A stretch of DNA of 64,000 bases from Paenibacillus graminis (GTDB lineage: Bacteria; Bacillota; Bacilli; Paenibacillales; Paenibacillaceae). The stretch is from positions 2,480,001 to 2,544,000 of the forward strand of contig NZ_CP009287.1 of the NCBI RefSeq assembly GCF_000758705.1, given 5' to 3'. Shown piece after piece: positions 41,694 through 61,794 of this stretch. The notes beneath the pieces are model-generated. The model searched no databases. It was not told where the DNA came from and saw only the letters and a program-made list of their open reading frames with translations. How positions within the stretch are numbered: position 1 is the first letter of the stretch; each line of letters opens with the position of its first letter. The translations under genes and the position numbers were made by a program.

Positions 41694-41738
41694 GCTTGAG
41701 ATTGACTTAGATGGATGATTAACGAAGGAGGAATAAAA

Positions 41739-44514: not shown

Positions 44515-44738
44515 GTACATCCCCTTTGGGTTAAAGGAAAATATTTATGGATGTATTATATGGGGCTGGGTATTAAAAAAACACTACATACTAACTTTCG
44601 AATAGGTTAAATTATGGTTGTTTTAGGAGTTGTTGTGACTAAATTCAAGGAGGTGCTTCTGAAAAAGGTTGAGTCGGGTGACGTTACTGCTCGCCGCTGT
44701 TTCATGTTAAAGCCAGTCAACTATATCGTGAGTGCCAT

Positions 44739-46532
44739 CTACACGATATTCTCCGTTCTCGCCAGTTCTATCGCTTCTTCGCGGTTGTTGACGTTGAGCT
44801 TTGAGTAGAGAATCGAGCAGTAATTGCGGATCGTGCCCTCCGATAAAAATAACTTGGCGGCGATCGACTTGTAGCGCAGTCCGCCCGACAGATGTTCCAG
44901 AATCTCCATCTCGCGTTTCGTTAGGCCATACGGGTAGTTTTCCTGACTTGAACCTATCTTTTCCAACTGCTCACGTTGACGTTTCATCTCTTCGAAAACC
45001 CGTGTAGCAACCGATTGGTCGATCCAGGTTCCACCGTTATAAATAAGTTTCAAGGCTTCCTTCATCTCCCGCGGATGAATCGACTTTAGCATGTATCCTT
45101 CTGCTCCGCGCTCTAATGCAGATGCTGCCTGTAAGGAATCCTCAAACGTCGTCATGAACACAACCTTCATATCAGGCCAGCGTTGTTTTATCTCGAGTAA
45201 TGTCTCAAGCCCGTCAATTCCCTGCATACGAAAATCCATTAGCACAATATCCGGCCGGGAACGCTCACAATGCTCTAATGCTTCCCGTCCGTTCCCTGCC
45301 GTACCAATGACGTTAAAATCAACATGCTGATCCAAAATTTGCTTCAAACTGTCGGTAATGATGACCTGATCATCAGCGATCAGCAAGCGGATCGCGTCAT
45401 GTACAGGCTCGGTCAGCAACGGAATATTACATATGACGAAAGTACCTTGTCCTGGTCCGGAATGCATGGACAGCGTGCCGTGAAGTAGTTCAATCCTTTC
45501 CTTCATCCCATTCAGCTCAAATCCAAATTGGGTTTCTTCCATTCCGATGCCGTTATCTTCGATCTGTAACCGGATCTGCTGACTATCGAAAAGCAGCTGA
45601 ACGGATATCATGCTCGCCTGTCCGTACCGAACCGCGTTGGTTAGAGACTCTTGAAGGCAGCGATGTAAGCAAAAGTTTATTTTTTGCATCACAAGTGTCT
45701 CACTGCCGATCATACGGAATTTAACCGTTGTTCCCGTCGATTTCATGAATTCTTCAGTTAATTGCCGCAGCGACTCACTTAACGAATGGCTGAGCGGAAC
45801 TTGAGAGAGCTGGTGCAGATGCTTACGGATATCATCCATACTGTGCTGGGCGATACCGACAAGCGAATCGATCTTCTCGATCTGCGAATGCGGTACGGAC
45901 GATCGCAGCGATTCGACACCGACGATGAGCGAGGTAAGCGAATGGCCAATCGTGTCATGCAGCTCATGTGACATCCGGCTGCGCTCCTCCAGAAGCGTAA
46001 GCTCCTCTATCCGCTTAATATGCTGCTCCAGTAATTGCTTCTGCTCTTGAATAATTCGGGCTTGCTGATGGGACTGAATTAAGATATTGAACGCAAAGCC
46101 GATAGCAAAACCTAGGCTGCAGCTAAAGATAAACTCAAACGGGAGACGATCTGCGATCCAACCGTTCATTACCGGGAATACGATTCCGCAGAGGATCCCT
46201 GTCCACACATAAGTTGTTCGGCTGCTCGACAAGCCGATCGTTATCACAAGCAAAACAAAAGACCATAGCAGTTCCGGAGCTGTGTAGGCTATATAAAGAT
46301 AAAAAGACCCCGTTGCCGTGACTTCGACAGCGAGATACCTAGCTTCTTTTCGATAGCGGACGATGAATGGAACGAGGTAAACGACGAGAGCAAAAGAAAT
46401 TACAATCCAAAGCGACCCAGCGATCAAGGACGAATCGACAAAACCAGCGCTTGCGATAATGAACAGCCAAATTGTTCGAGTGGCCACAAGTATCCAATCA
46501 TACCAGAACCATTTTTTCATGATAGAGAACAC
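44739..46532 (-). CDS. Fused membrane histidine kinase-response regulator (HisKA_3-HATPase-REC-LuxR)
   Basis: A 597-residue protein that holds a whole NarL-type two-component system in one chain. Five or six membrane helices occupy residues 10-155. A HisKA_3 domain has the phospho-accepting His near 192 (SHELHDTIGHS), and the HATPase domain spans about 280-370 (LQESLTNAVRYG, EDNGIG). A receiver domain follows from about 381, with IADDQ and the acceptor Asp near 433 (LMDFRMQGIDG), and a LuxR helix-turn-helix ends the protein (LTKREMEILEHLSGG). DesK/LiaS-like kinases and LiaR-like regulators are normally separate proteins. A GTG start with AGGTGA upstream is used. A transcription factor tied to the membrane is unusual. 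It is divergent from the duplicated serine hydrolase gene, a likely target. Confidence 0.9.
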   Translation of the reverse strand: MFSIMKKWFWYDWILVATRTIWLFIIASAGFVDSSLIAGSLWIVISFALVVYLVPFIVRYRKEARYLAVEVTATGSFYLYIAYTAPELLWSFVLLVITIGLSSSRTTYVWTGILCGIVFPVMNGWIADRLPFEFIFSCSLGFAIGFAFNILIQSHQQARIIQEQKQLLEQHIKRIEELTLLEERSRMSHELHDTIGHSLTSLIVGVESLRSSVPHSQIEKIDSLVGIAQHSMDDIRKHLHQLSQVPLSHSLSESLRQLTEEFMKSTGTTVKFRMIGSETLVMQKINFCLHRCLQESLTNAVRYGQASMISVQLLFDSQQIRLQIEDNGIGMEETQFGFELNGMKERIELLHGTLSMHSGPGQGTFVICNIPLLTEPVHDAIRLLIADDQVIITDSLKQILDQHVDFNVIGTAGNGREALEHCERSRPDIVLMDFRMQGIDGLETLLEIKQRWPDMKVVFMTTFEDSLQAASALERGAEGYMLKSIHPREMKEALKLIYNGGTWIDQSVATRVFEEMKRQREQLEKIGSSQENYPYGLTKREMEILEHLSGGLRYKSIAAKLFLSEGTIRNYCSILYSKLNVNNREEAIELARTENIV

Positions 46533-46663
46533 GGATTATGTTCACCTGCTTGTATGTTTATGATAATCAATTTCCGATTGATTCAGACCCTTATCATGCA
46601 CCATTACCTCCTTATTCGTCAAGCGAGAGAGGGGGGACGGTTAGAACTTGGCTGTAGCAAGAA

Positions 46664-46691
46664 TGTCATATGAGACATTGACAATTTGTCA
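46664..46691. promoter_or_regulatory. Adjacent palindromes, candidate operator
   Basis: TGTCATATGAGACA (46664-46677, 4-base arms) is followed by TGACAATTTGTCA (46679-46691, perfect 6-base arms). They lie in the 295-base region between the divergent kinase-regulator fusion and the serine hydrolase gene, which holds no other gene. A LuxR-type regulator would bind such dyads. Confidence 0.4.
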
Positions 46692-46827
46692 TACGGTATA
46701 TGTGGCAGGTCCAGGCACGATGTCATCAAAAGTTTGGCGGTTTCATCAATATCCGATTTAACAACTTCGGGGGTAGTGTGAAGGAGTGAACCAACACACC
46801 ATTCCAAAATAATAGGAGCGATGCATT

Positions 46828-48987
46828 ATGAAATTATTTACCATGCAAAGAGGAGTTGCACTTACGTTAACAGCTATATTGGCGGTTACACCGGTATTCC
46901 CTGCTTATGGAACACTACACGCAGCGGGTCACACCGCAATCTATCAAGCGATTGATAAAGCTGCTAATAGCGACAATATTCCAGGCGTGATCGTAACCGT
47001 TAAGAAAGGAGATGCAAGTTGGTCCTATGCTTCCGGAGAAGGGAATATTGAAAGAAATCATATGGTGGATGCCGACTCTGCTTTCCGGATCGGAAGTACA
47101 ACGAAGACGTTTGTCGCTACGGTTGCCTTGCAGCTTGCAGGCGAGAAGAAACTGTCCCTTGATGATACGGTGGAGAAGTGGCTGCCAGGACTCGTACAAG
47201 GCAATGGGTACGACGGCAATAAAGTTAAGATTCGTCAATTGTTGAATCAAACAAGCGGACTTCCAGACTACTTGACGCCAGAACTTAGAACGAAGTTACT
47301 GGCGAATCCAGCTGGGAATTATACAGCCGAGCAGTTAATCGCCATGAGTTTGGAGCAAAAGCCGGTAACGGGGTGGGCATACTCGAACACAAATTACACG
47401 ATTATGGGTCTCATTATCCAGAAAGCTACCGGGGAAACCTATGCGGAGCAGATTAAGAAACGAATTATTGAACCGCTTCAGCTGAAAGAAACCTTCCTCC
47501 CCGGCAATTCGATGGATATTCCGAAAAAAAATGCCCGCGGCTACTTGGACACAGGAAATAAATTAGTAGATGTTACAGTGCTTAACCCATCGTTTGCTAA
47601 TTCCGGCGGAGAGATGATCTCGACAGGGGAAGACCTGACGACGTTTTTCCGCGCCTTATTGGGCGGAAAGCTGTTGACGCCAGAGATGAAGAAGGAGATG
47701 TTGACTAGCACAAGTGATTCCCCATTTGGAAAGTATGGACTTGGCATACATCAAACAAAGCTACCTGACGGCACCATTGTATGGGGACATGGCGGCGGTA
47801 TTCCCGGATTTACCAACTTTGCGGGCGGAACGGAAGACGGTCAACATGTCATCTCGATCAATATTAATGTACTGGGAGATGCGGCTGGACATATCAACAA
47901 TATTATAGAGACGGAATTCACAAAAGAACCCAAAAAAGAACTCAACGAGAAGGAAAAGAAAATCAAGCATCGGGAAGACGTCAAACACGTTATGGATGAG
48001 GTGATAACGAACAAAAGAGTCCCTAGTGTTATAGCCGGCGGACTACAGGATGGCGAACGCTGGTCCTATGCTACAGGCACAGCTAGCTACGAAGTTCCAC
48101 GCTCAGTGGAGCCGGATTTTTCATTCCGTATTGGAAGCATCACGAAGACGTTCACTGCTTCCGTTATATTACAATTGGCTGAGGAGAAACAATTGAGTCT
48201 GGATGATTCGGTCGAAAAATGGCTGCCAGGGATCATAAAGGGGAACGGGTATGACGGCAACAATATTAAGATTCGTCAATTATTGAACCATACAAGCGGG
48301 CTTGCGAGCTATACGGATCCAGATATGCGAGACATTATCTTGCCTCACAATCCATTCCGTTACTATTCCGTCGACGATCTTATCGGCTTGGCCCTTGCAA
48401 AGCCGCCTGTATATGCGCCAGGGCAGGGTTGGAACTATTCCAACGTCAATACGATACTCGCCGGCAAAATTATTCAGAAGGTAACCGGGGATACGTATGC
48501 GGAACAGATCAGGAAGCGGTTCATCAAACCGCTCGGGCTGACGGAGACATTCGTCATGGAGAATAGTTCTCATATTCCGGGGAAGCATGCCACAGGATAC
48601 AATATGGACAGATCGGGCCATTTGTATGATTTGACTGAAATGAATCAATCCTGGGCAAATGCAGCCGGAGATATGGTGTCAAACGTCAAAGATTTGACCA
48701 CCTTCTTCAGTGCGCTTTTAGGTGGAAAGCTACTAAATCAAGAGATGATGGACCAGATGCTCACAACAGTAGATTCACCTTTGGGTAAAGTCGGACTAGG
48801 GATTTTTGAAGGGAGAACGCCGGACGGGCAATCCTACTGGGGGCATGCCGGCGGTACTTTCGGATTTGAGACAAGAGCCTTCGGAACTCTAGGTGGGAAG
48901 CATATTCTGGTAACGGCCATCAACTCGGTAGGACCGGAAGCCACAGAGGCTCACGATAAATTACTCAACAAGGAGTTTAACCGTTAA
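46828..48987 (+). CDS. Secreted serine hydrolase with two tandem beta-lactamase-like domains
   Basis: Exported protein of 719 residues of the class C beta-lactamase/PBP4*/esterase family (PF00144), with a cleavable-type signal peptide ending near AYGTLHAA. Unlike the usual 350-450-residue single-domain members it has two complete copies. Domain 1 (about 35-365) has SxxK at Ser90 (GSTTKTF), YSNTNY and HGGG; domain 2 (about 385-719) has Ser437 (GSITKTF), YSNVN and GHAGG. The copies are similar throughout (for example SLDDTVEKWLPG and SLDDSVEKWLPG), so an internal duplication is clear. A charged KKELNEKEKK-type linker joins them. It may act on peptidoglycan peptides, D-amino-acid peptides or beta-lactams. 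Divergent from the fused kinase-regulator. Confidence 0.92.
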   Translation: MKLFTMQRGVALTLTAILAVTPVFPAYGTLHAAGHTAIYQAIDKAANSDNIPGVIVTVKKGDASWSYASGEGNIERNHMVDADSAFRIGSTTKTFVATVALQLAGEKKLSLDDTVEKWLPGLVQGNGYDGNKVKIRQLLNQTSGLPDYLTPELRTKLLANPAGNYTAEQLIAMSLEQKPVTGWAYSNTNYTIMGLIIQKATGETYAEQIKKRIIEPLQLKETFLPGNSMDIPKKNARGYLDTGNKLVDVTVLNPSFANSGGEMISTGEDLTTFFRALLGGKLLTPEMKKEMLTSTSDSPFGKYGLGIHQTKLPDGTIVWGHGGGIPGFTNFAGGTEDGQHVISININVLGDAAGHINNIIETEFTKEPKKELNEKEKKIKHREDVKHVMDEVITNKRVPSVIAGGLQDGERWSYATGTASYEVPRSVEPDFSFRIGSITKTFTASVILQLAEEKQLSLDDSVEKWLPGIIKGNGYDGNNIKIRQLLNHTSGLASYTDPDMRDIILPHNPFRYYSVDDLIGLALAKPPVYAPGQGWNYSNVNTILAGKIIQKVTGDTYAEQIRKRFIKPLGLTETFVMENSSHIPGKHATGYNMDRSGHLYDLTEMNQSWANAAGDMVSNVKDLTTFFSALLGGKLLNQEMMDQMLTTVDSPLGKVGLGIFEGRTPDGQSYWGHAGGTFGFETRAFGTLGGKHILVTAINSVGPEATEAHDKLLNKEFNR

Positions 48988-48991
48988 GTTT

Positions 48992-49034
48992 AAAGCCGAC
49001 ATCGCTCTCTTTATTTGAGAGGGGTGTCGGCTTC
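48992..49034 (+). terminator. Terminator after the serine hydrolase gene
   Basis: AAGCCGACA and TGTCGGCTT form the stem, with an inner CTCTC/GAGAG pairing. Confidence 0.75.
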
Positions 49035-49114
49035 TGTAACACCAAGCGGTTTTTAATTGGGTAAGCCAATATCCAATAACATCTAAAACTAAAAATAGGA
49101 GGTGGAAATCATGG

Positions 49115-49312
49115 TTGTCCCCCGATCATTCCGGCATACACATAATGCCAGGGGGTGCTGGCATGATTGTTGCAACCTACACATTTGGTGAGACAAAGGT
49201 TCATATCTGTGATGAACATCTTGTTACAGACCCGGATGAACGGGAGAGAGTGGAGATTGCTATTGCTGATGCCGCCTGGGCATGCCTGCAAGACAAAGCA
49301 GAGCAGGAATGA
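49115..49312 (+). CDS. Small hypothetical protein
   Basis: A 65-residue frame starting at TTG, eight bases after a strong AGGAGGTGG at 49098-49106. An ATG at 49111 in another frame is closer and would give only 26 residues. The protein is acidic in its second half, with a short beta-rich N-terminal part (MIVATYTFGETKVHICDEHLV) and a helical C-terminus. A restart at the ATG at 49163 is possible. I do not recognise the family. Small proteins of this kind occur in accessory regions, but no function can be proposed. Confidence 0.5.
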   Translation: MSPDHSGIHIMPGGAGMIVATYTFGETKVHICDEHLVTDPDERERVEIAIADAAWACLQDKAEQE

Positions 49313-49592
49313 AGCAAACATTATCATTATCAGAACATTCAACATCAAATAATCCGATTGCTCACTGGGCCGAGGGGAGAAGAACATGAACAAAACATAG
49401 CCCCATAAGAGCCCGCGAGGTATTTGATTCAAAGCTTGGCTATGACGTTAGGTCCTAGCCCTTGTGTGTTACATAATAATGAAATTGTGCAATTACTTAA
49501 GCGAACGGGCAGGATAACGCGATGATTTCAGGAATATTGAAAGTAGAAACATCAAAGTTGTATGAATAAATATTACAAAGGAGCTAATCCGA
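49313..49592. other. Intergenic region, nothing recognised
   Basis: 280 bases with scattered stop codons in all frames and no hairpin, repeat or RNA feature that I can support. Confidence 0.4.
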
Positions 49593-50224: not shown

Positions 50225-51364
50225 CTACTCAATAATGCCGGTATCTACAATTTTAACCTCCACTTTAGGATGGAATTGTACTTTACGATAATCTTTTGAC
50301 CAATTTTTGTCCCTCCAGACATTGTGATGATAAGCAATGAGTTTTCTCCCCACACCAAAGATATCACAGTTCGCCTTTTGAACTTCTTTTATAACCGATT
50401 CAGCCTCTTTTGTGAGGATTTCCGAAAATGCTTGATTTACCTTTTGAAGATCTTCCTCTTTTAGCAAATGCTTCCCAGGAAACTCTTCTACGACGGCTCG
50501 TAGCTTTAACTCCAAATGGACTTCAACACTTCCGTCAGCAGAAACCGATACCTTGAATTTCCGCTTCACTTTTTTTAAACCTGCATTAATGGTAATGTAC
50601 TCCTGTATATGATCCGGATAGCCCAGATCAATTTTCTTTGTGAATCTCGCATTTTTGCCCTTTTGCCCCTTTAGCAGGACCAGTAATATGGACTGATCCG
50701 GGTTCAGCATCCCGCTATAATACTGATCATGAAAGAGGGCCAATCCTCTTGTGATAATCTCATCTTTATCTAAAGCTATATAGGGAAGAGCAAAGTCCTG
50801 CCCGGGATCTTTCAGGAACCGGAACACGGTATCTAACGTTTCTTTTGGAAATAGACTCATTTCCTCAAGGCTTTCAATCTTTTGTGTGATGAATTCGCCA
50901 ATCTTTAACTCCCCAACCGTTTTTTGTTGAAGAATGTCGGAGGCACTTCCTTCCGCAATAATTACCCTAACGTTGGATGTCGGGTTGCTTGGATCCCTGA
51001 AGTTCACATCCAAATTAGAATAAAGGCCTTGCTCTGCCACTGACTTTCCAAGTAACTGAAAACCATTTTTAAGAAATCTGATGTTTCCCCTCACGCGGTT
51101 ACGCATCTGATTGCTGGAACTGCGCAGGTTATGTCCATAACTTGTATGAATTTCGCTCGTAGTCGATTTTTGCTCAACTTCAGGTGGAATGATTAATTCC
51201 ACGGTTTCTTTTATCATTCCATTTTCACTTATATCAAACCCCACGCCGTAGGCTAGATGCAAGTCCTTCAAGTATTCCCGGTCCCAGCATCCGGTGAGAC
51301 TGAGGGAGGAAAGCGTAATCAGCACCGACAATCCAATCGTTCCTAACTTCATGCGGCATCTCAT
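50225..51364 (-). CDS. Spore germination protein, Ger(x)C family lipoprotein
   Basis: C subunit of a germinant receptor, 379 residues. The signal peptide ends in a lipobox LTGC followed by WDREYLKDL, the usual start of mature GerAC proteins, and the rest matches the three-domain Ger(x)C layout with the C-terminal AESVIKEVQK...DIFGVGRKL...HHNVWR. It would sit on the outer face of the spore inner membrane. Its start overlaps the stop of the gerB gene by four bases (ATGA), so the two are coupled. It is the last gene of the gerA-gerB-gerC operon. Confidence 0.93.
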   Translation of the reverse strand: MRCRMKLGTIGLSVLITLSSLSLTGCWDREYLKDLHLAYGVGFDISENGMIKETVELIIPPEVEQKSTTSEIHTSYGHNLRSSSNQMRNRVRGNIRFLKNGFQLLGKSVAEQGLYSNLDVNFRDPSNPTSNVRVIIAEGSASDILQQKTVGELKIGEFITQKIESLEEMSLFPKETLDTVFRFLKDPGQDFALPYIALDKDEIITRGLALFHDQYYSGMLNPDQSILLVLLKGQKGKNARFTKKIDLGYPDHIQEYITINAGLKKVKRKFKVSVSADGSVEVHLELKLRAVVEEFPGKHLLKEEDLQKVNQAFSEILTKEAESVIKEVQKANCDIFGVGRKLIAYHHNVWRDKNWSKDYRKVQFHPKVEVKIVDTGIIE

Positions 51365-52455
51365 GCAGGGCCACTTCCTTTTCTCTTAATAAATAGAGAA
51401 ATGATTAACAGTACCAGCGGAAGCCCGCCAATAAAGAGATAGGCAGCATATGTAGAGGCTGTATCCAGTAGATGAATGCCGACAGAGGTTACTGGCGCAA
51501 GCGCGATCATGAATGTAGTGATTTTCACAAACGGAGTAAAATTCCGATGGCTTTTTCGTTTCAGTAAAACACTGAGCCCAATGGACGCTGCATAGCAATA
51601 GCTTACGATAGAACATACAAGGGTTATGGCCCAGATCGGCAAAAACAAGATATCTGCACGGTCTACAATGAAAAAACTTAGAGATTTCATTAAGTAAATA
51701 ACCGGTTCGGGTATCATTTTGATTTGCTCGGAGTTAAAGAACATCAGGCAGGTAGAGACCACGAAGACATAGAACAGGGTCACAAACAGGTTAGAGAGAC
51801 TGACGGTTATCAACTTTTGTTTATCTGTACCTTCAGATAGCGGGTAGATGATCAGCATTAATTCGAAACCGTACATAGATATCGTTGTGTCTTTTGCTCC
51901 CTTTACGATATTCCAGACCCCTTTTTCCAATAGGGGTAACATATTTTCCAGATGGGCTTGAGTTAATCCATAGCAGATAAATAAAAATAATGGAATAAAA
52001 AGCACGGAGGCCAGTGTATAAAATCTTGCCAATACCGTTAGCTTTTCTCTTGCAAGGTAGAGAGTCATGATAGAAAAAAGAGCCAATACAGCCCATCTTG
52101 GCGTAGTTTGCAGCATCCACCTCTGAAGAACTTCTACGGCACTAAGCATAATATTGGAGCCAAGCAGAATAAAGTAACCAATGTACACAATAATCAATAG
52201 ACTGCCAATAATCGGGCCTCCGAGCTTTATGCAAATATTGTACAGGTTAAGCCCGGGAAATTTCTTCAGCAGGAGCCACAGAAGAATGATGACAAGTTGG
52301 GTAATAACCCCTGCAACTAAAACGGAAAGGGCACCTCCGCCTTTGGCGGTTTCGTTAAGTTTGAAGGGGAGAGACAGAATTCCAACACCGATTTGGGCTT
52401 GAATAATAAACAGGAAGAGTTGTCCCCTCGTTAGCATTTTTTCCTTTTGAGCCAC
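51361..52455 (-). CDS. Spore germination protein, GerAB family
   Basis: B subunit of the germinant receptor, 364 residues with about ten membrane helices, belonging to the amino acid/polyamine transporter-like GerAB family. The N-terminus (TRGQLFLFIIQAQIGVGILSLPF) is typical. In Bacillus this subunit contributes to the germinant-binding pocket. It starts with GTG eight bases after CAGGAGT and lies 36 bases after the gerA gene. The germinant cannot be predicted from sequence. Confidence 0.93.
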   Translation of the reverse strand: MAQKEKMLTRGQLFLFIIQAQIGVGILSLPFKLNETAKGGGALSVLVAGVITQLVIILLWLLLKKFPGLNLYNICIKLGGPIIGSLLIIVYIGYFILLGSNIMLSAVEVLQRWMLQTTPRWAVLALFSIMTLYLAREKLTVLARFYTLASVLFIPLFLFICYGLTQAHLENMLPLLEKGVWNIVKGAKDTTISMYGFELMLIIYPLSEGTDKQKLITVSLSNLFVTLFYVFVVSTCLMFFNSEQIKMIPEPVIYLMKSLSFFIVDRADILFLPIWAITLVCSIVSYCYAASIGLSVLLKRKSHRNFTPFVKITTFMIALAPVTSVGIHLLDTASTYAAYLFIGGLPLVLLIISLFIKRKGSGPA

Positions 52456-52491
52456 CGTATCAACTCCTGTAAGTACAGTATAGATTAATGT

Positions 52492-53916
52492 TCATTTATT
52501 CGTTTTTGGGTTGCTTGTCCTCTTTCGGATAGACCAAATTGGAAAGCGTACGAAGGTATCTTTCAGGCCTTGAGAGTTTAACGGACTTAATGGTCTGAAG
52601 TAGGGCTGCCCAAAAGACTCTAGCTTGCACAAATGAATAAAAATGAGTGTTAACCCAAAGGATATCCCAATATAGCCGAATAAAGAGGCAGCAATCATCA
52701 GGGGAAACCGCATAAACCGGATAGCAGAGCTCATTTCGTTGGAAGGGATAAGAAAAGATGAAATAGCAGTCAACGCTACAACAATAATCATCGTATAAGA
52801 AACCAATCCTGCCTTAACAATTGCATCCCCGATGACTAGCCCCCCAACAATCCCGATAGTTTGACCTACACGGCTGGGCAGACGAAGTCCTGCTTCCCGC
52901 AGCAGTTCGAAAATAAGCTCCAGCAGCATCGCTTCAATCAGCGGAGGAAAAGGGACCCGGGTCAATGAACCTTGAATCGTAAAGAACAATTGCAAGGGAA
53001 GGACATTGGAGTGAAAAGACACGGTGGCAATATAAAGCGCCGGCAACTGAAATGCTGTTACAAAGCCGATTAGACGGATAAAACGGACAAAAGAAGCGAT
53101 CATCCACCGATTATTGTAGTCGTCCGGTGTCCGATAAAAGCTGAAGAAGCTCGCGGGCACAATCAGAGCTGTGGGGTCCCCGTCCAGCAGGATTACGACA
53201 TATCCGTCCAGCAAGTAGTTAGAGGTATGGTCCGGACGCTCTGTATTGATTAGTTGTGGAAATATGGAGAAGGGGTTATCCTCCGTTAATTCCTGAATAA
53301 AACCTGTGGAGAGTATCCAATCGAGTGAAATCTTCTGGATTCTTGCTTCTACGATTTTCACCAATTCAGGATTGGCGATATTCTCCATATATACTAAGCT
53401 AACCTGTTTGGGGACGGTTTTTCCAAGTGTGAAGTAGCGGACCTTAAGGTTTGGGGAAGCTATTTGTTTCCGAATCAAATATAAGTTAACCTTCATCTGT
53501 TCAATAAAACCGTTATGAGGTCCCCGAATGACCCCTTCATTCTCAGGTTCGCTAATGCTTCGTTCGTACTTGGCAGGAGTGAGAAGGACATAGAATTCAG
53601 ACATTCCTTCTAAAAAATAAAGGCAGCTCCCTTCAAGAAGCCCCTGAATGCCTTGGTTTAATTCTGTTTCCAAACTGAAAGTAAGGGTGGTGAAAAGCTC
53701 GGAAAGGTCTTTATCCTGATTACGGCTAAAAGGAATAATCACATTTCGTTCAATCAATTCTGTGTCAGTGATGGACTCCAGATAAAGGACCACTCCTTTC
53801 CTTCCCTGAAAGGAAATGCTTCTTTTTTTGAGGTCATTTGTATTGAACAATGCCGCTTCGATGTAATCGGAATTTTGATCTACAGAAGGGAATGAGGTCT
53901 GAGTTTGGTTTGACAT
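52492..53916 (-). CDS. Spore germination protein, GerA family
   Basis: A subunit of the germinant receptor, 474 residues. It has a soluble N-terminal domain of about 250 residues, with the conserved LLxG/VxxLDGxPxA-type stretch (LDGYVVILLDGDPTALIVPASF), and four to five membrane helices (RVPFPPLIEAMLLELIFELLREAGLRLP is the hallmark region). The acidic C-terminal tail is short. First gene of the three-gene receptor operon, in the usual A-B-C order. I could not see a convincing sigG promoter. A lipoprotein gene is divergent from it about 210 bases away. Confidence 0.94.
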   Translation of the reverse strand: MSNQTQTSFPSVDQNSDYIEAALFNTNDLKKRSISFQGRKGVVLYLESITDTELIERNVIIPFSRNQDKDLSELFTTLTFSLETELNQGIQGLLEGSCLYFLEGMSEFYVLLTPAKYERSISEPENEGVIRGPHNGFIEQMKVNLYLIRKQIASPNLKVRYFTLGKTVPKQVSLVYMENIANPELVKIVEARIQKISLDWILSTGFIQELTEDNPFSIFPQLINTERPDHTSNYLLDGYVVILLDGDPTALIVPASFFSFYRTPDDYNNRWMIASFVRFIRLIGFVTAFQLPALYIATVSFHSNVLPLQLFFTIQGSLTRVPFPPLIEAMLLELIFELLREAGLRLPSRVGQTIGIVGGLVIGDAIVKAGLVSYTMIIVVALTAISSFLIPSNEMSSAIRFMRFPLMIAASLFGYIGISFGLTLIFIHLCKLESFGQPYFRPLSPLNSQGLKDTFVRFPIWSIRKRTSNPKTNK

Positions 53917-54846: not shown

Positions 54847-55065
54847 CTATAGTAGACGTGGATGCAGGAACAGCTCAAACTGCTCTTTATACTGACCGGG
54901 ACCTTTTTTATAAACCACTTTGTTCAGCACGGATTTCATTAACGTATTTCTGCTCATCGGATTGTCTGTCTGGCAGTACAACATCCCTACTGATTCTGCA
55001 GTAGGGATGATTTTGCTTCTTGCTTCTTTCCTGATCAATTCCAGATATAATCTTAAAGATTTCAT
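54847..55065 (-). pseudogene. Remnant of a serine recombinase (C-terminus only)
   Basis: About 65 residues match the very C-terminus of the intact recombinase at 42958-44514: ELIRKEARSKIIPTAES, QTDNPMSRNTLMKSVLNKVVYKKG and GQYKEQFELFLHPRL, against near-identical segments there. By eye the DNA is also clearly related but not identical, so it is a second, older element rather than a recent copy. Everything upstream of the C-terminal region (catalytic, recombinase and zinc domains) is gone. It has the same orientation as the intact gene, 11.9 kb away. Confidence 0.8.
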
Positions 55066-55547
55066 TGACCCGTTCGGTTAATAAGGTATGAAATCTAAAA
55101 CAGGACAAAAGATCATGCTTATGCATAATTTATTGTCCTGTTTTGGTTGAGTTGTATGTGAAAAATATTTCGCTGTATACGTGAGGTGGTTTGGAACAAC
55201 TGTAAGGGCATGCAGGAATAAACTACCAACCCGTATTGTAACGAGAGGAGTGGCTTATGTGGTGGAAGATCCGGGACGCGGCGAGATCGCTTTTGCCTGG
55301 GTGACTCGCTAAGACTGAACCATTCGAGAATGAAGGAGGAGCACTCCACGAAACCAGACAGATGTGTGGCAAATCCCTCGAATTCCATTCAGACTATATG
55401 ATGATGCGTATCATTGAGAATAGTAGGAAGGGAGGGGAATAAACAGAACGAGCAAAGTGATTGAGGTTTTAGCGAACAGGTTGGTGCTTCTCATAGAGAC
55501 CTTAGCTTGAACCTTCAATGCAATATAAAATTTATAGACGTCCATAA
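55066..55547. other. Gene-free junction between recombinase remnant and truncated yheD
   Basis: 482 bases without a credible gene. It holds a 12-base perfect hairpin AAAACAGGACAA/TTGTCCTGTTTT at about 55097-55144, which could terminate transcription in both directions. Beyond that are only short frames, including a plus-strand one ending in MMRIIENSRKGGE near 55440, without family resemblance. It is probably decayed mobile-element sequence. Confidence 0.5.
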
Positions 55548-55682
55548 TCAACGTGTAAACACAAAGACATCCAGGCCAATCCGGCTGCCTTCAATAATCA
55601 TTCTCCGGTATACGCTTTTCTCTTCAAGCTGTTTCGCATCGTTCATATAGAGCGTAAGGATGCCTAAGACGGGTTCTGGCAC
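55548..55682 (-). pseudogene. Truncated YheD-like ATP-grasp gene (N-terminal fragment)
   Basis: A GTG start six bases after a perfect AAGGAGGTGA opens a frame of 44 codons. It encodes VLGILTLYMND...LEEKSVYRRM...GLDVFVFT, the standard N-terminus of YheC/YheD proteins (LGILT...GLDVFVFTP), then stops where the conserved FTP motif should continue into about 300 further residues. The frame is too short for usual ORF cut-offs. It overlaps the GNAT gene by 19 bases and is the last gene of the ATP-grasp operon, evidently cut off by a rearrangement: the next recognisable feature is the recombinase remnant 480 bases away. Confidence 0.8.
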
Positions 55683-56185
55683 AGGAGTTCACCTCCTTGT
55701 AGAAGATTTGCGGGCAGGCTGGCTGGGTGCTGCGGTGAACGGAGCAGCAGTGTCGGCTTGCCGGTAGGCCCCTCGCTCAATGCCACCGCCACAAGCCCTG
55801 TGTTGAAGCACATTTTCAGGCTGGCGGCATTGTCGCTCGCCACGGTGCATTCTAGAGTGCCGAGGCGTTCCAGCTGTGCGGTCAATAGCGCTGTCCCGGT
55901 ATGCCGATTCCGGTATAAGGGATGGACGGCGACAAGGCAGGCTTCCTTGCCGAAGCCGGACACGAAGCTGACGCCTGCAAGCTGGCGCCCGTTCTGGCCG
56001 CGTACAGTGGCGACCAGAAGAGATACGCCGGGCTGTGACAGCTGCTCCGGCGTCAGCCGGGCCAGCACTCTGCATCCGCGAAGTGTAATCCGCTTTTCTC
56101 CATATTCCCTCAAGAACTCCAGCAGACCAGCCAGCCTGATTTTCCACCGTTCCGGGTTGCTGTCAAAGAGGGAGGATATCTGCAT
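55664..56185 (-). CDS. GNAT-family N-acetyltransferase in the YheC/D operon
   Basis: Acetyltransferase-like protein of 173 residues. The GNAT core is AGVSFVSGFGKEACLVAVHPLYRNRHTGTALLTAQLERLG, with the acetyl-CoA loop region RNRHTGTALL near residue 95, then VASDNAASLKMCFNTGLVAVAL. The start is the ATG at 56185 with AAAGGAAGTG upstream. It lies 31 bases after one ATP-grasp gene and overlaps the truncated one, so it belongs to the operon. Pairing of an acyltransferase with several ATP-grasp ligases suggests modification of the same spore-coat substrate, but this is inference. Confidence 0.8.
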   Translation of the reverse strand: MQISSLFDSNPERWKIRLAGLLEFLREYGEKRITLRGCRVLARLTPEQLSQPGVSLLVATVRGQNGRQLAGVSFVSGFGKEACLVAVHPLYRNRHTGTALLTAQLERLGTLECTVASDNAASLKMCFNTGLVAVALSEGPTGKPTLLLRSPQHPASLPANLLQGGELLCQNPS

Positions 56186-56216
56186 GGGTGTCACTTCCTT
56201 TACTGGGTTTCATGGG

Positions 56217-57329
56217 CTATTTGCGGTGACGGGACAGATGCTGGCCGAACTGGAAAATCCGTTCCAGCGACAGCTTGCGGATTGCCGGCTCATCAAATTT
56301 CATCGGACGGGAGTTGGCCTCAAAAAACCACAGTCCGCCTTCCTCATCCACACCCAGATCCATCGACATCTCTCCAAGCATGGTTTCGGATGCCCGTTCG
56401 ATCTGCCGGGCGATCAGCAGGGCGGTCATGGGCACATTCTTCAGAATGGCCGCCGCCCGCTCTGCCCCGAAGGTGCCTTCCAGCATGCTGGAAGGCTCTT
56501 CGATGCTGCCGCCGCGCGGCACATGGGTCGTTATGCTCCGTGCCCCGGCCAGCCGTGCCCCGATGCCGGTTACCGCCCAGGCCCCCTTGCCGTTCTTCTG
56601 CAGCAGCACGCGCAGATCGAAAGGGCGGCCGTGGTGTGCAGCAAGCTCAATCGCTTGCTGCACAATATAACGTGAAGATCCTCTTTCCTTACCGATCCGT
56701 GCCCACACACGGTCAAGGGATGCCGCTTTATACGTCACATTTTTTTTGCCGCTCTGAATTTGCAGCCGGTAAGGGAGGCTGGCATCGATGCGGTATCTCA
56801 GCCGCATAATCCCTTTGCCCGCCTTGCCGTCCTCCGGCTTGAGGTAGAGGCTGTTATGATTTTTGAGCATCGCAACCAGTGTGTTGACACTGCGCAGACG
56901 CCTAGTTTTGGGCACGTGCTTCGAAGTGGCCCGTGACTCCTTTAACCATTCAAACAGATTCCATTTGTTAAAAAAGCTAGGGTTGTAAAGATGGATTTCC
57001 GGATGCTCCAGACATTCTGCTATTTTGCGGGCGACCGAGGCTCTTTCCTCTTCTTCGCGGTTGGGAATCCGGTTATAAACGACCTGAGGCAGCGGCATGG
57101 GTGTGCTGTACCAAATCCTGCCGCTTGCGGAGGGAACGTAGCCATTTACCACCCGCTCATCCAGCTTCAGATCGCGGACGGTGACGACATACACCAGGTA
57201 TCCCATTTCCTTGCCGGTACGGATGATATCACGGAAGTTTTCGCGGTTTCCGCGGAACTGCCGCAGTCTGTCACTGGTTGTCAGAATGGCAATCACAGGT
57301 TTGCCAGGGTCCGGGATTCGGCTGTTCAC
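56217..57329 (-). CDS. YheC/YheD-family spore coat-associated ATP-grasp protein (short form)
   Basis: ATP-grasp enzyme of 370 residues. It has the short N-terminal region of the YheC form (VIAILTTSDRL...GYLVYVVTVRDL), LPQVVYNRIPNR, the ATP-binding Lys in LYLKPEDGKAGKGI, RPFDLRVLLQKNGKGAWAVTGIG, and the metal-binding Glu/Asn in GLWFFEANSRPMKF. Established: YheC and YheD of B. subtilis are spore coat-associated proteins; their reaction is unknown, but ATP-grasp enzymes usually join a carboxylate to an amine. It overlaps the upstream gene by four bases. The final motif (RPMKFDE) differs a little from the KPG.T pattern of the others. Confidence 0.88.
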   Translation of the reverse strand: MNSRIPDPGKPVIAILTTSDRLRQFRGNRENFRDIIRTGKEMGYLVYVVTVRDLKLDERVVNGYVPSASGRIWYSTPMPLPQVVYNRIPNREEEERASVARKIAECLEHPEIHLYNPSFFNKWNLFEWLKESRATSKHVPKTRRLRSVNTLVAMLKNHNSLYLKPEDGKAGKGIMRLRYRIDASLPYRLQIQSGKKNVTYKAASLDRVWARIGKERGSSRYIVQQAIELAAHHGRPFDLRVLLQKNGKGAWAVTGIGARLAGARSITTHVPRGGSIEEPSSMLEGTFGAERAAAILKNVPMTALLIARQIERASETMLGEMSMDLGVDEEGGLWFFEANSRPMKFDEPAIRKLSLERIFQFGQHLSRHRK

Positions 57330-58699
57330 AGTTCATCCCTCCTGCGGAATTTGCTGAGGTATAGACAATGCTCCAGGATATGCTCGATGGAAGCTTTGCC
57401 CTCAGCGCGCAGGGATGGATGGCGGAAGATCGAGCGTCCCGGTTTGGCATTCGCCTCGAACATCCAGATGTCCTCATCCTGGTCAATTCCAAGGTCAAAG
57501 CCAATTTCGCCGAGCAGATGCCGGTGCTGAAGCTCCAGGGATTCGGCCAGTTTCACGGCAGTCGTTTTGGCCCGCTGCAGCACATCGTCGGCTCTGGTCC
57601 CGAAGACGCGGCCAAGGGCCTGCTGAGGAGTGAGCAGCGCACCGCCGTTCTTGAGATGGGTGGTGACACTGCCCCGGCCGGCTTTTTTAGCTCCGATACC
57701 GACGACAACCCATTGATTGCTGCCGTTCTTGTGCATGTGAAAACGGAAGTCGATCGGGCAGCTGTCGATTTCAATGAGCCGTATGCCCTGCTGCACCACA
57801 TAGCTCTGCAGGCTTTGGCCATGCCGGCCCCGCAGCATCCGCATCAGGCTGTCGAAGCTGGCAAAGCGCAGCAGCACATTTTTGCCGTTCTTCCGGTATC
57901 GGGCAAAGTAGCCCTTCTTCGGGAGATAGGTCAGCCGGTAGATCCCGTGTCCCAGGCTGCCGGCGGAAGGCTTGTAATATACGAAATGATGGCGGTCGAG
58001 CATATCGCGCATCTGTTCCGGGCTCGGATTGCTATGTGTTTCGGGGACAAAACGATTAGCCACGCCGTCATTCTCCAGCAGCCGGTATACATCTGATTTA
58101 TTAAAAAAGCTCCAGTTGAAATAAGGGATCTTCTTCCGTGCGAACCGTTCGCGAAGCTGGTTGATGTAGGGGGAAGTCTCCGCTCTGCGGCTGGGAAGCC
58201 GGTTGTAAACGACATCCGGCAGCGGAACAAGCTTACGCTCGAATTTGCCGCTTGCATTCAGGAAATAACCGTTGACCTGCTCCTGCTGCCAGTCAATATC
58301 GCGCGGCATGAACGCAAAGATATAACATTTGTTGCTGCCCTCACGCAGCAGCTGCTTGATGAAGCCGGTACGGGAGCCAAAAGGGTTCCCCGACGAAGAC
58401 GGCCCGTCGGATAACACGCCGACAAGCGGACCCAGCTGAACTTCATCATTCTGCAGGTTGCGGAGGTAGACGCCTCCGGACTTCGGAATTTTGATTGCGC
58501 TCTTCACCCCGGAAGCAAGGAACAGATGTTTCCCGGCACGTTTGATCGGCTTGATCATTGCCGGAATCGCATCTTTGCCAAGCCGCAGGCGGATGTTTTT
58601 CTTGCCGGACAGTTTGAGGCTTTTCATCAGTTCACCCGAAACGTAGACAACTCTTTGGGGCTGCTTGGTGAAATGCACATTGCAAAAAGTGAGACCCAT
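57326..58699 (-). CDS. YheC/YheD-family spore coat-associated ATP-grasp protein (long form)
   Basis: ATP-grasp enzyme of 457 residues. An extra N-terminal beta-rich domain of about 95 residues (GLTFCNVHFTKQPQRVVYVS...LQLGPLVGVLSDG-like) precedes the common region: DVVYNRLPSRRAE, FFNKSDVYRLL, the ATP-binding Lys in YYKPSAGSLGHGIYRL, CPIDFRFHMHKNG and EIGFDLGIDQDEDIWMFEANAKPGRS. This long layout matches YheD. It is coupled by a four-base overlap to the short-form gene downstream, a long/short pair that is repeated in the two genes upstream. Confidence 0.9.
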   Translation of the reverse strand: MGLTFCNVHFTKQPQRVVYVSGELMKSLKLSGKKNIRLRLGKDAIPAMIKPIKRAGKHLFLASGVKSAIKIPKSGGVYLRNLQNDEVQLGPLVGVLSDGPSSSGNPFGSRTGFIKQLLREGSNKCYIFAFMPRDIDWQQEQVNGYFLNASGKFERKLVPLPDVVYNRLPSRRAETSPYINQLRERFARKKIPYFNWSFFNKSDVYRLLENDGVANRFVPETHSNPSPEQMRDMLDRHHFVYYKPSAGSLGHGIYRLTYLPKKGYFARYRKNGKNVLLRFASFDSLMRMLRGRHGQSLQSYVVQQGIRLIEIDSCPIDFRFHMHKNGSNQWVVVGIGAKKAGRGSVTTHLKNGGALLTPQQALGRVFGTRADDVLQRAKTTAVKLAESLELQHRHLLGEIGFDLGIDQDEDIWMFEANAKPGRSIFRHPSLRAEGKASIEHILEHCLYLSKFRRRDEL

Positions 58700-58730
58700 T
58701 TATGAATCCTCCTTAGGAACCATTGATATA

Positions 58731-59882
58731 TCATTCTCCCGTGTATAATGGAGCGGTCCAGCGGCGAACACTCGGGCCCGCCGCAGACGTGAGCAGCAGA
58801 TGCCGGGCATAGCGCAGCGGATTCTCGGCAGCGAGTCTAGCAGCCCGGCGGTCGCCCGTCAGCCGGAACACTGTGCGCCCTGGCTTGGAATTGGCTTCAA
58901 GCAGAAAGATTCTACCGGCGGCATCAAGGCCGAAATCGAGACCCAGCTCTCCAAGTCTGCCGCAGGCTTCCTCCAGCAATGGAGGCAGATAAGCCGCTGC
59001 CCCGGCCAGTTCCTGCAGCAGTTCCCCTCCAGACTCCCCATATTCTGCAAGCAGGAAGGGCAGGGGGGCGACTGCGGTTCCTCCACCGTGCAGATTGGAA
59101 GTAAGGGAGCTGCGGCTGCCCAGTCGTACGGCCATGCCGGTCAGCGTCCAGACGCCGCGGCCGTTCTTCTGCATAAGCACGCGCACATCGAACGGCTGGC
59201 CGCAGCTGTCTGTGAGCTGCAAATAAGGCTGTATAATATAGCGGCGCAAGCCGATGAAGTCGCGGATCCAGTCCAGCCCTTCATCCACCGTGCCGAATAC
59301 ATGGTGAAAAGGGTGATTCGCCCCGTCCCGCCCGCGCAGGTTCATCCCTCCGCCTTGGCTTCGGGGCAATCTAACCGCATGAAGGGTGCGTTTGCCGTGC
59401 GAGCCGGCCCTGGGCTTCAGAAACACCCCATGTTCTCTTTCCGCAAGCATGGTTCCCAGCCCCCTGGTATTCTTGTAGAGCCGGGTTTCGGGCAGAATCC
59501 CCGCAGCATGGCGGCTTCGCCGGAGAATTTCATAGACCCTCCATTTATCGGGCAGTCCGCGCGACCAGGGAAGAGAGCGGGATAGAGCAGCCAAGGCGGA
59601 GGAAGCTGCTCTTTTTTCCTGCGGGCTGGTGAATAGACAGCGATTGTACAGGACGTCGGGGGCTGAGGCCCGGGTAGACTTCCACTCCCCATTCTCCCAG
59701 GCGTATCCGCTCACGGTTTGACCGTCGCTGGCTACGCCATCCGGGTGAAACACGATGACCTGGAGATTGTACAGCGGGGCTGCCCGGCATAGCTGGCTGC
59801 AGAACTCCCGTTCTGCGATAGGGGGATTCCCATGGCCCCGGCCTGTCATAATGCCCAGGAACCCCATTGCTGTCTCCGTCAT
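58731..59882 (-). CDS. YheC/YheD-family spore coat-associated ATP-grasp protein (short form)
   Basis: ATP-grasp enzyme of 383 residues of the short form. It starts MGFLGIMTGRGHGNPPIAER with no extra N-terminal domain, then VIVFHPDGV, APDVLYNRCLF, FLKPRAGSHGKRTL (ATP-binding Lys), QPFDVRVLMQKNGRGVWTLTGMAVRLG, SNLHGGGTAV and LDFGLDAAGRIFLLEANSKPGRTVF. It is the closest in-window relative of the degraded gene at 26888, sharing SNLHGGG and LTGMA..G. It sits 10 bases after the upstream long-form gene and 31 bases before the next, within one operon. Confidence 0.88.
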   Translation of the reverse strand: MTETAMGFLGIMTGRGHGNPPIAEREFCSQLCRAAPLYNLQVIVFHPDGVASDGQTVSGYAWENGEWKSTRASAPDVLYNRCLFTSPQEKRAASSALAALSRSLPWSRGLPDKWRVYEILRRSRHAAGILPETRLYKNTRGLGTMLAEREHGVFLKPRAGSHGKRTLHAVRLPRSQGGGMNLRGRDGANHPFHHVFGTVDEGLDWIRDFIGLRRYIIQPYLQLTDSCGQPFDVRVLMQKNGRGVWTLTGMAVRLGSRSSLTSNLHGGGTAVAPLPFLLAEYGESGGELLQELAGAAAYLPPLLEEACGRLGELGLDFGLDAAGRIFLLEANSKPGRTVFRLTGDRRAARLAAENPLRYARHLLLTSAAGPSVRRWTAPLYTGE

Positions 59883-59892
59883 GATGTCCTCC

Positions 59893-61260
59893 TTATAAAC
59901 CGGCCAGATAACGGCAGTATAAAATCATTTGTTTCACAGATGGCCGGATTTTTTGGTCGTTCAGCGGGGTATTGTCATTCTTAGACGGCTTGGAGTTAAC
60001 CTCCAGCAGCCAGATTCTGCCCGATTGATCCAGAGCGAGATCGATACCCAGCTCTCCGAAATGTGCGGGGATATACGTTTCCACACCCCTGGCAATGGCC
60101 AGCGCGGCCCGCGGAAGCAGAACCTGTGAGTTCTCCTTCACGCCAGAGGGCAAGCTGCTTTTCGCTATAGCCTCCCGTACGGTGCTAAGCGTCCCCCCGC
60201 GTGCCAGGTTCGAGACAAAATGGTTGCTGCCTGCAGTCCGGGCGACAATTGAAGTAACACCCCATTTTCCGGTGCCGTTCTTTTGCACAAGGGCCCGGAA
60301 ATCAACTGGCCGCCGGCCCAGCTCCATCAGGGACAGACCCTGCTGAATCTGGTAGCGGGTAGTTTTCATTTTGGGAGCAACGGATTGGAACAGCTTTGCC
60401 AGACTGGGATAGGTTTGTTTGCGCGTGCCCATTGGCGTGGTGGACAACAGCCGGTAACCGCCGCTCTCATCCTTGGAAATGCGCAGAATGCCTTTGCCGA
60501 GACTGCCGCGAACCGGCTTGAGAAACACACTGTTATAGGTTCCGCACATTTTCTTAAGTATCGCGAAACCCTTCAGGGCATGGGATTCAGGCAAATACCG
60601 CTGCAGGGTGGCGTCTTGGGCGAGCGCTTCAAATACCTCCGTCTTATCAAGAAATTTTTCATTGAAAAAATGTGTCCCATAGCGGGATTTTACATCCGCC
60701 AGAAAATGCTGTACGCTAGGTTTGTTCTCCACCTTTCGTGTGGTAAGCCGATTGTTGATGACATCGGCAATAGGCAGACTCAGCTTACGCCAGCCTTCAT
60801 CGTATACCCAGCCCTGTATGGAAGTGCTGTGCGATTCGAGCGCTTCCGGGGTAAAGAAATATACATAGGCTCCTTGTGCATGGCAGGCATTGGTCAGCTC
60901 CCGGCAGAACAGGGTAATCGGGCCGAACAGCCTGTCGGGTTGATCCGGATGGTCACGGCTCACCAGCACTCCGATGATCGGCCCAAGTCGCAAGGTGCGG
61001 CTTCCTGAGCTGTAGGAAACATTGAGCGCCAGCCGTTGCCGGAGCCCAAGCCGCCGCGCCAGTCCTTCGCTGACGCGGAGAATGTCGGATTTGGGCACCG
61101 GAATGACCGTGACCTCCTGCCGGAAAGATCCGAAGGTGAGCTGGATGGTTCCATGCACCGGTATTTTGAGCTTCTTCATGGATTTGTCGCCAAGCATTAC
61201 AGCGTTTTCCTGCAGGATGCCCGAGTGGACCGTTTGGACCGGGATCTTGAACTTAGACAT
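59893..61260 (-). CDS. YheC/YheD-family spore coat-associated ATP-grasp protein (long form)
   Basis: First gene of the operon, 455 residues. It has the long-form N-terminal beta-rich domain of about 105 residues (KIPVHGTIQLTFG...LGPIIGVLVSRD), then DVINNRLTTRKVE, FFNEKFLDKTEVFEAL, the ATP-binding Lys in VFLKPVRGSLGKGILRI, RPVDFRALVQKNGTGKWGVTSIVART and GIDLALDQSGRIWLLEVNSKPSKND. The ATG at 61260 follows GGAAGGAG; a longer frame reaching 61287 contains the ribosome site. A sigK-like promoter candidate lies about 70 bases upstream, matching expression in the mother cell during coat assembly. Confidence 0.9.
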   Translation of the reverse strand: MSKFKIPVQTVHSGILQENAVMLGDKSMKKLKIPVHGTIQLTFGSFRQEVTVIPVPKSDILRVSEGLARRLGLRQRLALNVSYSSGSRTLRLGPIIGVLVSRDHPDQPDRLFGPITLFCRELTNACHAQGAYVYFFTPEALESHSTSIQGWVYDEGWRKLSLPIADVINNRLTTRKVENKPSVQHFLADVKSRYGTHFFNEKFLDKTEVFEALAQDATLQRYLPESHALKGFAILKKMCGTYNSVFLKPVRGSLGKGILRISKDESGGYRLLSTTPMGTRKQTYPSLAKLFQSVAPKMKTTRYQIQQGLSLMELGRRPVDFRALVQKNGTGKWGVTSIVARTAGSNHFVSNLARGGTLSTVREAIAKSSLPSGVKENSQVLLPRAALAIARGVETYIPAHFGELGIDLALDQSGRIWLLEVNSKPSKNDNTPLNDQKIRPSVKQMILYCRYLAGL

Positions 61261-61325
61261 CGTGGATCTCCTTCCGGTAGGCAGCATGATGCCGGCTATT
61301 TGAATCTTAAGGGTTACATATCATT

Positions 61326-61353
61326 CATCATATGGAGACATCTGACCCTTGGT
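61326..61353 (-). promoter_or_regulatory. Candidate sigK promoter of the YheC/D operon
   Basis: On the minus strand an AC dinucleotide is followed after 17 bases by CATATGATG, close to the mother-cell sigK pattern (AC, 16-17 bases, CATANNNTA); the last base of the -10 differs. It lies about 66-93 bases before the first gene. Confidence 0.35.
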
Positions 61354-61449
61354 GATTGACCTATTTGCTAAAAAGCCGGACTGGGCGGAATTCATCCGCC
61401 GGCGGAGGGAACAGCATCAGCAGCAGAATAACTTTTAGGAGGAACTATT

Positions 61450-61794
61450 ATGAACGTTATCGACAAGGCGCATGAATTGGCACGGGCCATTAAGGACAGC
61501 AGTGAGGTAGCCGATATCACAAGTGCGATGAGGGTGATTGAAGCAGACCAGGAGAGCAAACGGATGCTGGACAACTTCCGGCAGAGCCAGATCGAGCTGC
61601 AGCAGCGGATGATGAACGGAGAAATGCCTCCGCAAGAAGAAATGGAAAAGATGGAGAAGCTGTTCGAGGTGCTTAACCTGAATCTGGGCATCCGCCGTTT
61701 ATTCGATGCGGAACGCCGCCTAAGCGTGGTTATTGAGGATGTGAACAAAATTATTACGGACAGCCTGTCACAAATGTATGGCGGTGCACAATAA
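61450..61794 (+). CDS. yheA: YlbF/YmcA-family protein YheA (UPF0342)
   Basis: Small cytoplasmic helical protein of 114 residues resembling YheA of Bacillus, of the same superfamily as YlbF and YmcA. It is predicted all-helical, with the typical MNVIDKAHELARAIKDS and FEVLNLNLGIRRLFDAERRLSVVIEDVNKII. YlbF and YmcA act with YaaT on RNase Y and development; the role of YheA itself is not settled. It starts at an ATG behind TTTTAGGAGG. In B. subtilis yheA also neighbours yheC and yheD, so the synteny is conserved, here divergent. A strong terminator follows. Confidence 0.9.
   Translation: MNVIDKAHELARAIKDSSEVADITSAMRVIEADQESKRMLDNFRQSQIELQQRMMNGEMPPQEEMEKMEKLFEVLNLNLGIRRLFDAERRLSVVIEDVNKIITDSLSQMYGGAQ

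Follow-up and report, generated by a model that had tools for sequence, protein, structure and literature searches.

A coat-associated ATP-grasp gene of Paenibacillus graminis is split by a site-specific element that may be excised in the sporulating mother cell

A stretch of 64,000 nucleotides from Paenibacillus graminis (NZ_CP009287.1; hereafter the window, from genome G000) carries five genes in tandem that all match the family of coat-associated ATP-grasp proteins PF14398. An earlier note had described the fifth gene, which we call C3, as truncated, and this raises the question of what became of the rest of it. The array ends in a C3 5' stub (55548-55682, minus strand), which has a GTG start behind a sequence resembling a ribosome-binding site (RBS) and consists of 43 C3 codons, one codon contributed by inserted DNA and a stop (44 codons). 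A whole-genome profile search gave a further YheCD match on the same strand, at 26939-27715. It belongs to a frame of 333 codons without an internal stop (26888-27892, minus strand; YheCD Pfam match of 246.6 bits), which picks up where the stub leaves off, 27.7 kb away. The stub is thus present as described, but the gene is not simply truncated, as it continues at 26888-27892. A mobile element has integrated site-specifically behind codon 43 and splits C3, and the "truncated" gene may be a whole gene kept as two pieces.

An intact C3 sequence was used as query against 100 genomes of the same genus and matched in 99 of them, the one miss (G025) being 71% complete. In 91 genomes, the match begins at residue 1-3 and in one (G029) it is cut by a contig end, whereas in the remaining seven (G000, G015, G033, G028, G038, G031 and G098) it begins only at residue 37-39. 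All seven have a separate stub of the first 43-45 residues. A simple truncation or an assembly error can be ruled out, as the same cut is found in seven genomes and the second part is present in each of them; four of the seven (G000, G028, G038, G098) are single-contig assemblies. In all seven genomes, both borders carry a 9-bp core, TGTGTTYAC, with one-base variants at two of the 14 sites. In the window, the attL core is TGTGTTTAC (55555-55563, minus strand) and the attR core, one base off the usual core, is TGTATTTAC (27891-27899, minus strand); the second variant is the attL of G038 (CGTGTTTAC). With variants among the genomes, attL reads ...GATGTCTTTGTGTTTAC followed by ACGTTNATTATAGACGT, and attR reads ...CACGTCTATGATGNANGTGTTATTGTGTTTAC followed by CCC. 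The cut codon (...GLDVFVFT) is identical in the window, P. jilunlii and Paenibacillus sp. PastM-3, and the DNA beyond it differs. When a script joined the two parts in silico at the core, a frame of 376 amino acids resulted in 7/7 genomes, which is the length of the intact query.

The element of the window (27900-55554) measures 27,664 bp from core to core. The elements of G015, G033 and G028 are 26,021, 18,113 and 24,183 bp in size, and those of G038, G031 and G098 are 64,819, 71,185 and 76,017 bp. The window element encodes a large serine recombinase of 520 amino acids (42958-44520, minus strand) with Resolvase, Recombinase and zinc ribbon domains, all above the Pfam cut-off. A recombinase at least 85% identical to it is present in all seven split genomes and in none of the other 93, where the next best match is 55% identical (Fisher 6e-11, a value inflated by ignoring kinship). 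In G031, G038 and G098, the end of the recombinase gene lies 5-11 bases before the C3 match resumes. The common recombinase occurs in two quite different elements. Within the first type, G000 and G015 share colinear blocks of 9.3 and 16.4 kb at about 95% identity and G000 and G033 share blocks of 11.3 and 5.0 kb at 93%, and the recombinases of G000, G015, G033 and G028 form one clade (support 100/99). As the element is colinear and the recombinase clade single, one insertion before these four genomes split is likely, although independent gains are possible.

Where else is this recombinase lineage found? A survey of 394 Paenibacillaceae genomes, with relatives counted at an E-value of 1e-120 or better, yielded 22 recombinases, of which seven are those of split C3 genes, six lie at sigK, seven at cotJC and two elsewhere; 20 of the 22 are thus in elements that split C3, sigK or cotJC. 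Both sigK pieces were found in all six cases (G231, G183, G221, G294, G264 and G280; loci L155-L158, L160 and L161), with the recombinase beside one piece. In G183, G264 and G280 the pieces are on separate contigs, and the 5' match of G280 contains five stop codons. Judged by sequence, the sigK-splitting elements are skin-type elements in Paenibacillaceae. Similarly, both cotJC pieces were found in all seven genomes of that group (G054, G075, G003, G191, G212, G279 and G363; L127 and L162-L168), whose recombinases are 41-48% identical. In G054 and G075 about 34 kb separates the pieces, in G003 and G363 they are on separate contigs, and the G212 recombinase lies about 1.5 kb from its piece. For three sequences the pieces were confirmed as Mn catalase. 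From these sequences, cotJC is a probable second target of intervening elements. The remaining two relatives (G055, G149) adjoin genes that on visual inspection resemble phage lysis genes. A viral origin of the recombinase was considered and not adopted, as no relative was confirmed in IMG/VR contigs and phage and plasmid records reach only <60% identity. At the sigK locus of G264 (L161), a short translated unit (FQSTHPRRMR / NPRIRVGCD) recurs after the recombinase, beside the sigK piece; this is probably a CRISPR array.

In a midpoint-rooted tree, the recombinases of the split C3 gene (yheC3) form one clade (100/100), whose sisters are three of the sigK recombinases (100/100). The cotJC recombinases also form one clade (100/100), the six sigK rows do not, and a long-branch warning applies to four rows, two each of cotJC and sigK. 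G031 and two sigK loci have an identical 28-base att arm, with different cores. sigK is intact in the three split-C3 genomes checked (G000, G015, G031), and cotJC is intact in G000. The simplest story for these sequences would be a change of target from sigK to yheC3.

We propose that the element resembles skin, SP-beta and gin in being excised in the mother cell, whereby C3 would be rebuilt, and we consider this reading probable. In the sporulating mother cell, recombination between attL and attR by the large serine recombinase would release the element as a circle and restore the 376-codon C3 gene. The rebuilt C3 protein would then act together with the other four array proteins (D1, C1, D2 and C2) as a coat-associated ATP-grasp ligase, and in the forespore the element and its cargo would remain in place. 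Here, we infer excision, its timing, a directionality factor and the ligase reaction. The view of C3 as a sporulation gene is by analogy with yheC and yheD of B. subtilis. These are described as sigma-E genes whose expression is raised by SpoIIID (PMC517825), and YheD is described as forming rings and later a shell around the forespore (PMC7911427, as far as that text was available to us). Self-interaction of YheD is the only interaction seen in print, within the same part of that source (PMC7911427).

If C3 is rebuilt regularly, selection should still act on it. For the 333-codon half, the six pairs formed by G000, G015, G033 and G028 give dN/dS ratios of 0.127-0.248 and the three pairs of larger elements 0.168-0.200; for eight pairs with intact C3 the ratios are 0.039-0.181. 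Three pairs of the window's clade were tested for neutrality, which was rejected in each (p = 2.8e-12, 4.3e-11 and 0.011); it was also rejected for G031-G098 (p = 3.6e-20), two genomes that may have diverged before the insertion. By these measures the split C3 is still under purifying selection.

Several observations weigh against excision in the mother cell. In the window's clade, split C3 has a slightly higher dN/dS than most intact pairs have, and a second C3 3' half is still open in G083, where C3 is intact, so that an open frame alone proves little. A pattern for attP, allowing up to two mismatches, matched eight of the 100 genomes, all at left ends (six in C3 and two orphans), so that no attP was found; vegetative DNA would look so anyway. 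An excisionase-family gene lies beside the G038 recombinase (TIGR01764, 31.5 bits, cut-off 28.8) and has a homologue in G031, whereas only a faint trace is seen in the window (36% over 59 amino acids, E 0.005) and none was found in G015, G033, G028 and G098; for the window itself, this faint trace is the weakest point of the proposal. A homologue of the excisionase also lies near the intact C3 of G076. Lastly, a block of 21 bases before the recombinase is identical in all seven genomes, but inspection against the sigma-E and sigma-K consensus revealed no clear promoter of either kind before the recombinase, and the block is more like a vegetative -10 element. For SP-beta and the skin element of C. 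difficile, constitutive expression of the recombinase is reported, the directionality factor being controlled instead (PMC5595907, in the part available).

Further partial copies of C3 and of the element's left end were seen in several genomes. In G083 (L149), G050 (L150) and G054 (L151), an intact C3 is followed 3.5-13 kb on by a second 3' half or fragment, which in G050 is mostly still open; in G083 and G054 the second part is preceded by a similar att arm, with open reading frames (ORFs) of 1363 and 3859 amino acids in between. In the window's own genome, a decayed C3-like gene lies beside a second recombinase, 41% identical and with a long open frame (L152; G000:C1:6025415-6030485). The two orphan left ends are at G079:C1:5185823 (L171) and G041:C1:4880383, in genomes where C3 is intact elsewhere, and within 1.5 kb of the G079 end no C3 or recombinase sequence was found; they are perhaps scars of off-target insertion.

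Could the element simply have disrupted a dispensable gene, leaving C3 dead and never excised at sporulation? C3 is one of five paralogues, and the lack of an excised form in the 100 assemblies, the mere trace of an excisionase-like gene in the window and the slightly raised dN/dS would all fit such a disruption. Against it, both parts of C3 are open in 7/7 genomes and the 333-codon half is far from neutral, the recombinase itself has a dN/dS of 0.06-0.13 and the spare C3-like copies of G000 (at 6.03 Mb) and G054 are in pieces. The recombinase lineage is, moreover, otherwise found at sigK, a gene that is indispensable for sporulation. We therefore regard plain disruption as unlikely.

A somewhat weaker case can be made for an element of conjugation or phage type that leaves at low frequency in any cell, so that C3 works in a sub-population independently of sporulation. 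The relatives of 65-76 kb carry FtsK, TraG-type P-loop and M23 genes, the block before the recombinase resembles a vegetative -10, and the yin element of C. botulinum is reported to be excised at all time points (PMC10747680, in the part available). Selection on C3, on the other hand, fits regular rebuilding, and the relatives of the recombinase are at sigK, with cotJC as the other target. Like yheC and yheD, both are mother-cell genes in B. subtilis, and we give this explanation little weight. A further reading is that the 3' part has its own translation start within the element, with selection keeping an N-terminally altered product. In its favour, the frame continues through attR in all seven genomes (open frames of 353-389 codons). 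We hold it to be very improbable, as the missing residues 1-43 make up the opening strand, helix and strand of the modelled domain, the only early starts seen are TTG codons without a clear RBS, which in G038 and G031 lie inside the recombinase gene in another frame, and the DNA upstream varies between the element types.

Combining mother-cell excision with the recombinase phylogeny, one might speculate that this lineage is devoted to mother-cell genes, that its target changed from sigK to yheC3, with cotJC on a related branch, and that the yheC3 site serves as a dock for two different bodies and as a nearly cost-free home. We put this joint reading forward tentatively, as possible rather than probable. 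If it is true, the site is shared by two unrelated bodies, a metabolic island of 18-28 kb and a conjugation-like element of 65-76 kb, and the home would be nearly free of cost, since rebuilding of the gene is limited to the terminal mother cell and the cargo stays with the spore.

What would a rebuilt C3 join? The four intact genes of the array are D1 (long, YheD-like, 455 amino acids, 59893-61260), C1 (short, YheC-like, 383 amino acids, 58731-59882), D2 (long, 457 amino acids, 57326-58699) and C2 (short, 370 amino acids, 56217-57329), all on the minus strand, where the assignment of long forms as YheD-like and short forms as YheC-like follows the lengths of B. subtilis YheD and YheC. Their PF14398 (YheC/D) matches score 217.7-265.5 bits (cut-off 26.8). 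For D1, the ORF list has an earlier ATG, giving 464 amino acids; the ATG at 61260 lies behind an RBS-like stretch that relatives also have. C2 is followed by a gene for a GNAT-like protein of 176 amino acids (55664-56194, minus strand). The spacing is tight, with gaps of 10 bases between D1 and C1, 31 between C1 and D2 and 22 between C2 and the GNAT gene, and overlaps of 4 bases between D2 and C2 and 19 between the GNAT gene and the C3 stub; places and spacings of the four long and short genes on one strand are as first described. Upstream of D1, a block about 50 bases long (61314-61363, minus strand) is nearly identical in 10/10 aligned loci and is probably the promoter region of the array; inspection of its conserved bases gave no sigma-factor assignment. 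A YlbF-family gene (Pfam; 61450-61794, plus strand) is divergent from the array, and yheA of B. subtilis, a member of the same family, adjoins yheC/yheD. At the other end, a 16S-23S-5S rRNA operon (21751-26739, plus strand) runs towards the C3 3' part and stops about 150 bases from it. Over about 5 kb past the C3 end, the window and six intact relatives have nothing in common, which speaks neither for nor against insertion.

Loci were also fetched with D2 as query and the best 80 of 270 were compared. The order D1-C1-D2-C2 is kept in 77 of these 80 named loci, in one of which (L047) D1 is spread over two ORFs, and the other three end at contig ends. C3 follows the array in 77/80, the exceptions being L039 (P. 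jilunlii), L051 (Paenibacillus sp. PastM-3) and L090 (contig end). The array is thus the usual Paenibacillus layout and its order is not due to chance. The embedded acetyltransferase, by contrast, did not hold up as a defining part of the set. Its best Pfam match, Acetyltransf_7, reaches 20.9 bits against a cut-off of 27, and a GNAT-like gene is present in 47 of the 80 loci and was not found in 33, in 32 of which the C2-C3 distance of 6-187 bases leaves no room for it, the last being the contig end L090. A more sensitive search gave a homologue in 53 of 61 same-genus genomes. The acetyl-CoA loop pattern R/Q-x-x-G-x-G/A occurs in 35 of the 47 homologues. The GNAT is therefore an optional member of the array, and its patchy presence in the named loci rules it out as a defining partner. 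Apart from the array, a lone YheCD gene lies near the contig start (G000:C1:6542-7357). It is possibly orf14, which is reported between gyrA and gyrB for paenibacilli (PMC5627462, in the part available).

With regard to chemistry, an alignment of 31 sequences contains 19 invariant columns, among them K201, K243, Q303, D317, R319, E398, D402, E415 and N417 (D2 numbering) in 31/31 rows. Across 401 sequences of the five paralogues, a set that includes seven joined C3 proteins and excludes pieces shorter than 300 amino acids, the same nine columns are conserved at 99.8-100%. We take these residues to have the Mg, ATP and substrate roles of their counterparts in other ATP-grasp enzymes, and their retention in both alignments speaks for the ligase chemistry that the earlier note had suggested. 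Structure models were obtained for the C3 of an intact relative (pLDDT 90.8) and for the window's D2 (pLDDT 88.1). The 50 best solved folds listed include RimK, glutathione synthetase, D-Ala ligases, LysX/ArgX and tubulin tyrosine ligase, with modest TM-scores of 0.4-0.7; a sequence search for a solved structure of D2 gave one chance-level match. As the residues are conserved and the modelled folds are nearest to peptide ligases, carboxylate-amine joining is the likely chemistry of the array.

The cargo of the window element has several parts. A germination part holds a GerA/spore permease/GerAC germinant-receptor operon (50225-53916, minus strand; Pfam), and the stretch at 28292-42866 (Pfam), with a pectin island, encodes a glycosyltransferase, ABC sugar uptake, AraC regulators, GH43, GH28, a pectinesterase, a hydrolase and GH88. 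A fused sensor kinase and LuxR-type regulator (minus strand), a PF00144 hydrolase (plus strand) and an unassigned ORF (49109-49432, minus strand) lie at 44739-49432 (Pfam), and the cargo also includes a GNAT. The germination part has a G+C content of 0.447 and the pectin part one of 0.509, against 0.617 in the C3 3' part, and the germination part is common to G000 and G015 and not to G033. At 54847-55126 (minus strand), what is left of the C-terminus of a second recombinase precedes a decayed att-like joint, which suggests that the element was built up stepwise. No phage structural genes were found among the 20 ORFs of the window element tested in Pfam.

The relatives of 65-76 kb have a common backbone with FtsK/SpoIIIE, a TraG-type P-loop protein and an M23 peptidase (G038). 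The G031 element also has GerA, GerAC, a Rha regulator and a DnaD-like protein; its ORFs tested included neither a relaxase nor a clear head or tail gene, and two terminase-like matches coincide with the two ATPases. By their gene content these relatives are conjugation-like, not proven integrative and conjugative elements. Germinant-receptor genes thus occur in both element types (50225-53916 in the window; 14710-17375 in L143, G031). If only the mother cell excises the element, the spore would retain such cargo.

The split-gene targets named in the literature, as far as the sources were available, are sigK, spoVFB, spoVR, spsM, gerE and yabG (PMC5595907, PMC10747680, PMC4191935). A literature search with most subscription papers outside its scope found neither yheC nor cotJC as the target of an intervening element, and nothing joining Paenibacillus, "intervening element" and sporulation. 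To these targets the sequences add a coat ATP-grasp gene split in seven Paenibacillus genomes and, with the same recombinase family, cotJC in seven genomes. With them, scattered cases could become a testable rule, namely that a recombinase lineage repeatedly chooses mother-cell genes. The split C3 offers a natural on/off state for asking what YheC/YheD coat ligases do, and the identical att arm on sigK and yheC3 elements is a natural experiment on target change by a serine integrase.

Among known systems, the closest in build may be gin, an element of 28.6 kb without phage genes in gerE of Bacillus cereus ATCC10987, for which three recombinases and a directionality factor, GirX, are described (PMC5595907, in the part available). 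Size, the lack of phage genes, a serine recombinase, a 9-bp core inside a mother-cell gene and a composite build are common to both; however, gin is in gerE, whereas the window element is in a yheC-type gene and carries pectin and germinant-receptor cargo. With skin in sigK, it shares the nearest recombinases outside the yheC3 group (65%), which lie beside split sigK, and the 28-bp att arm of G031 and two sigK loci, but core and target are not the same. SP-beta in spsM, vfbin in spoVFB, vrin in spoVR and yin in yabG (PMC4191935, PMC10747680, as far as these texts were available) likewise have their own recombinase and are inserted into a sporulation gene, yet they are prophages or prophage-like, in contrast to an element without a phage structural gene among the 20 ORFs tested. 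Cassettes of the SCC type are similar in having a large serine recombinase and remnants suggestive of stepwise build-up at one att site, and differ in that the CcrB match of the window recombinase is 84.9 bits against a cut-off of 900. Compared with the usual YheC/YheD genes, the window has five copies in tandem, one of them split. Taken together, the kind of element is known, whereas its target, its cargo and the change of target look new.

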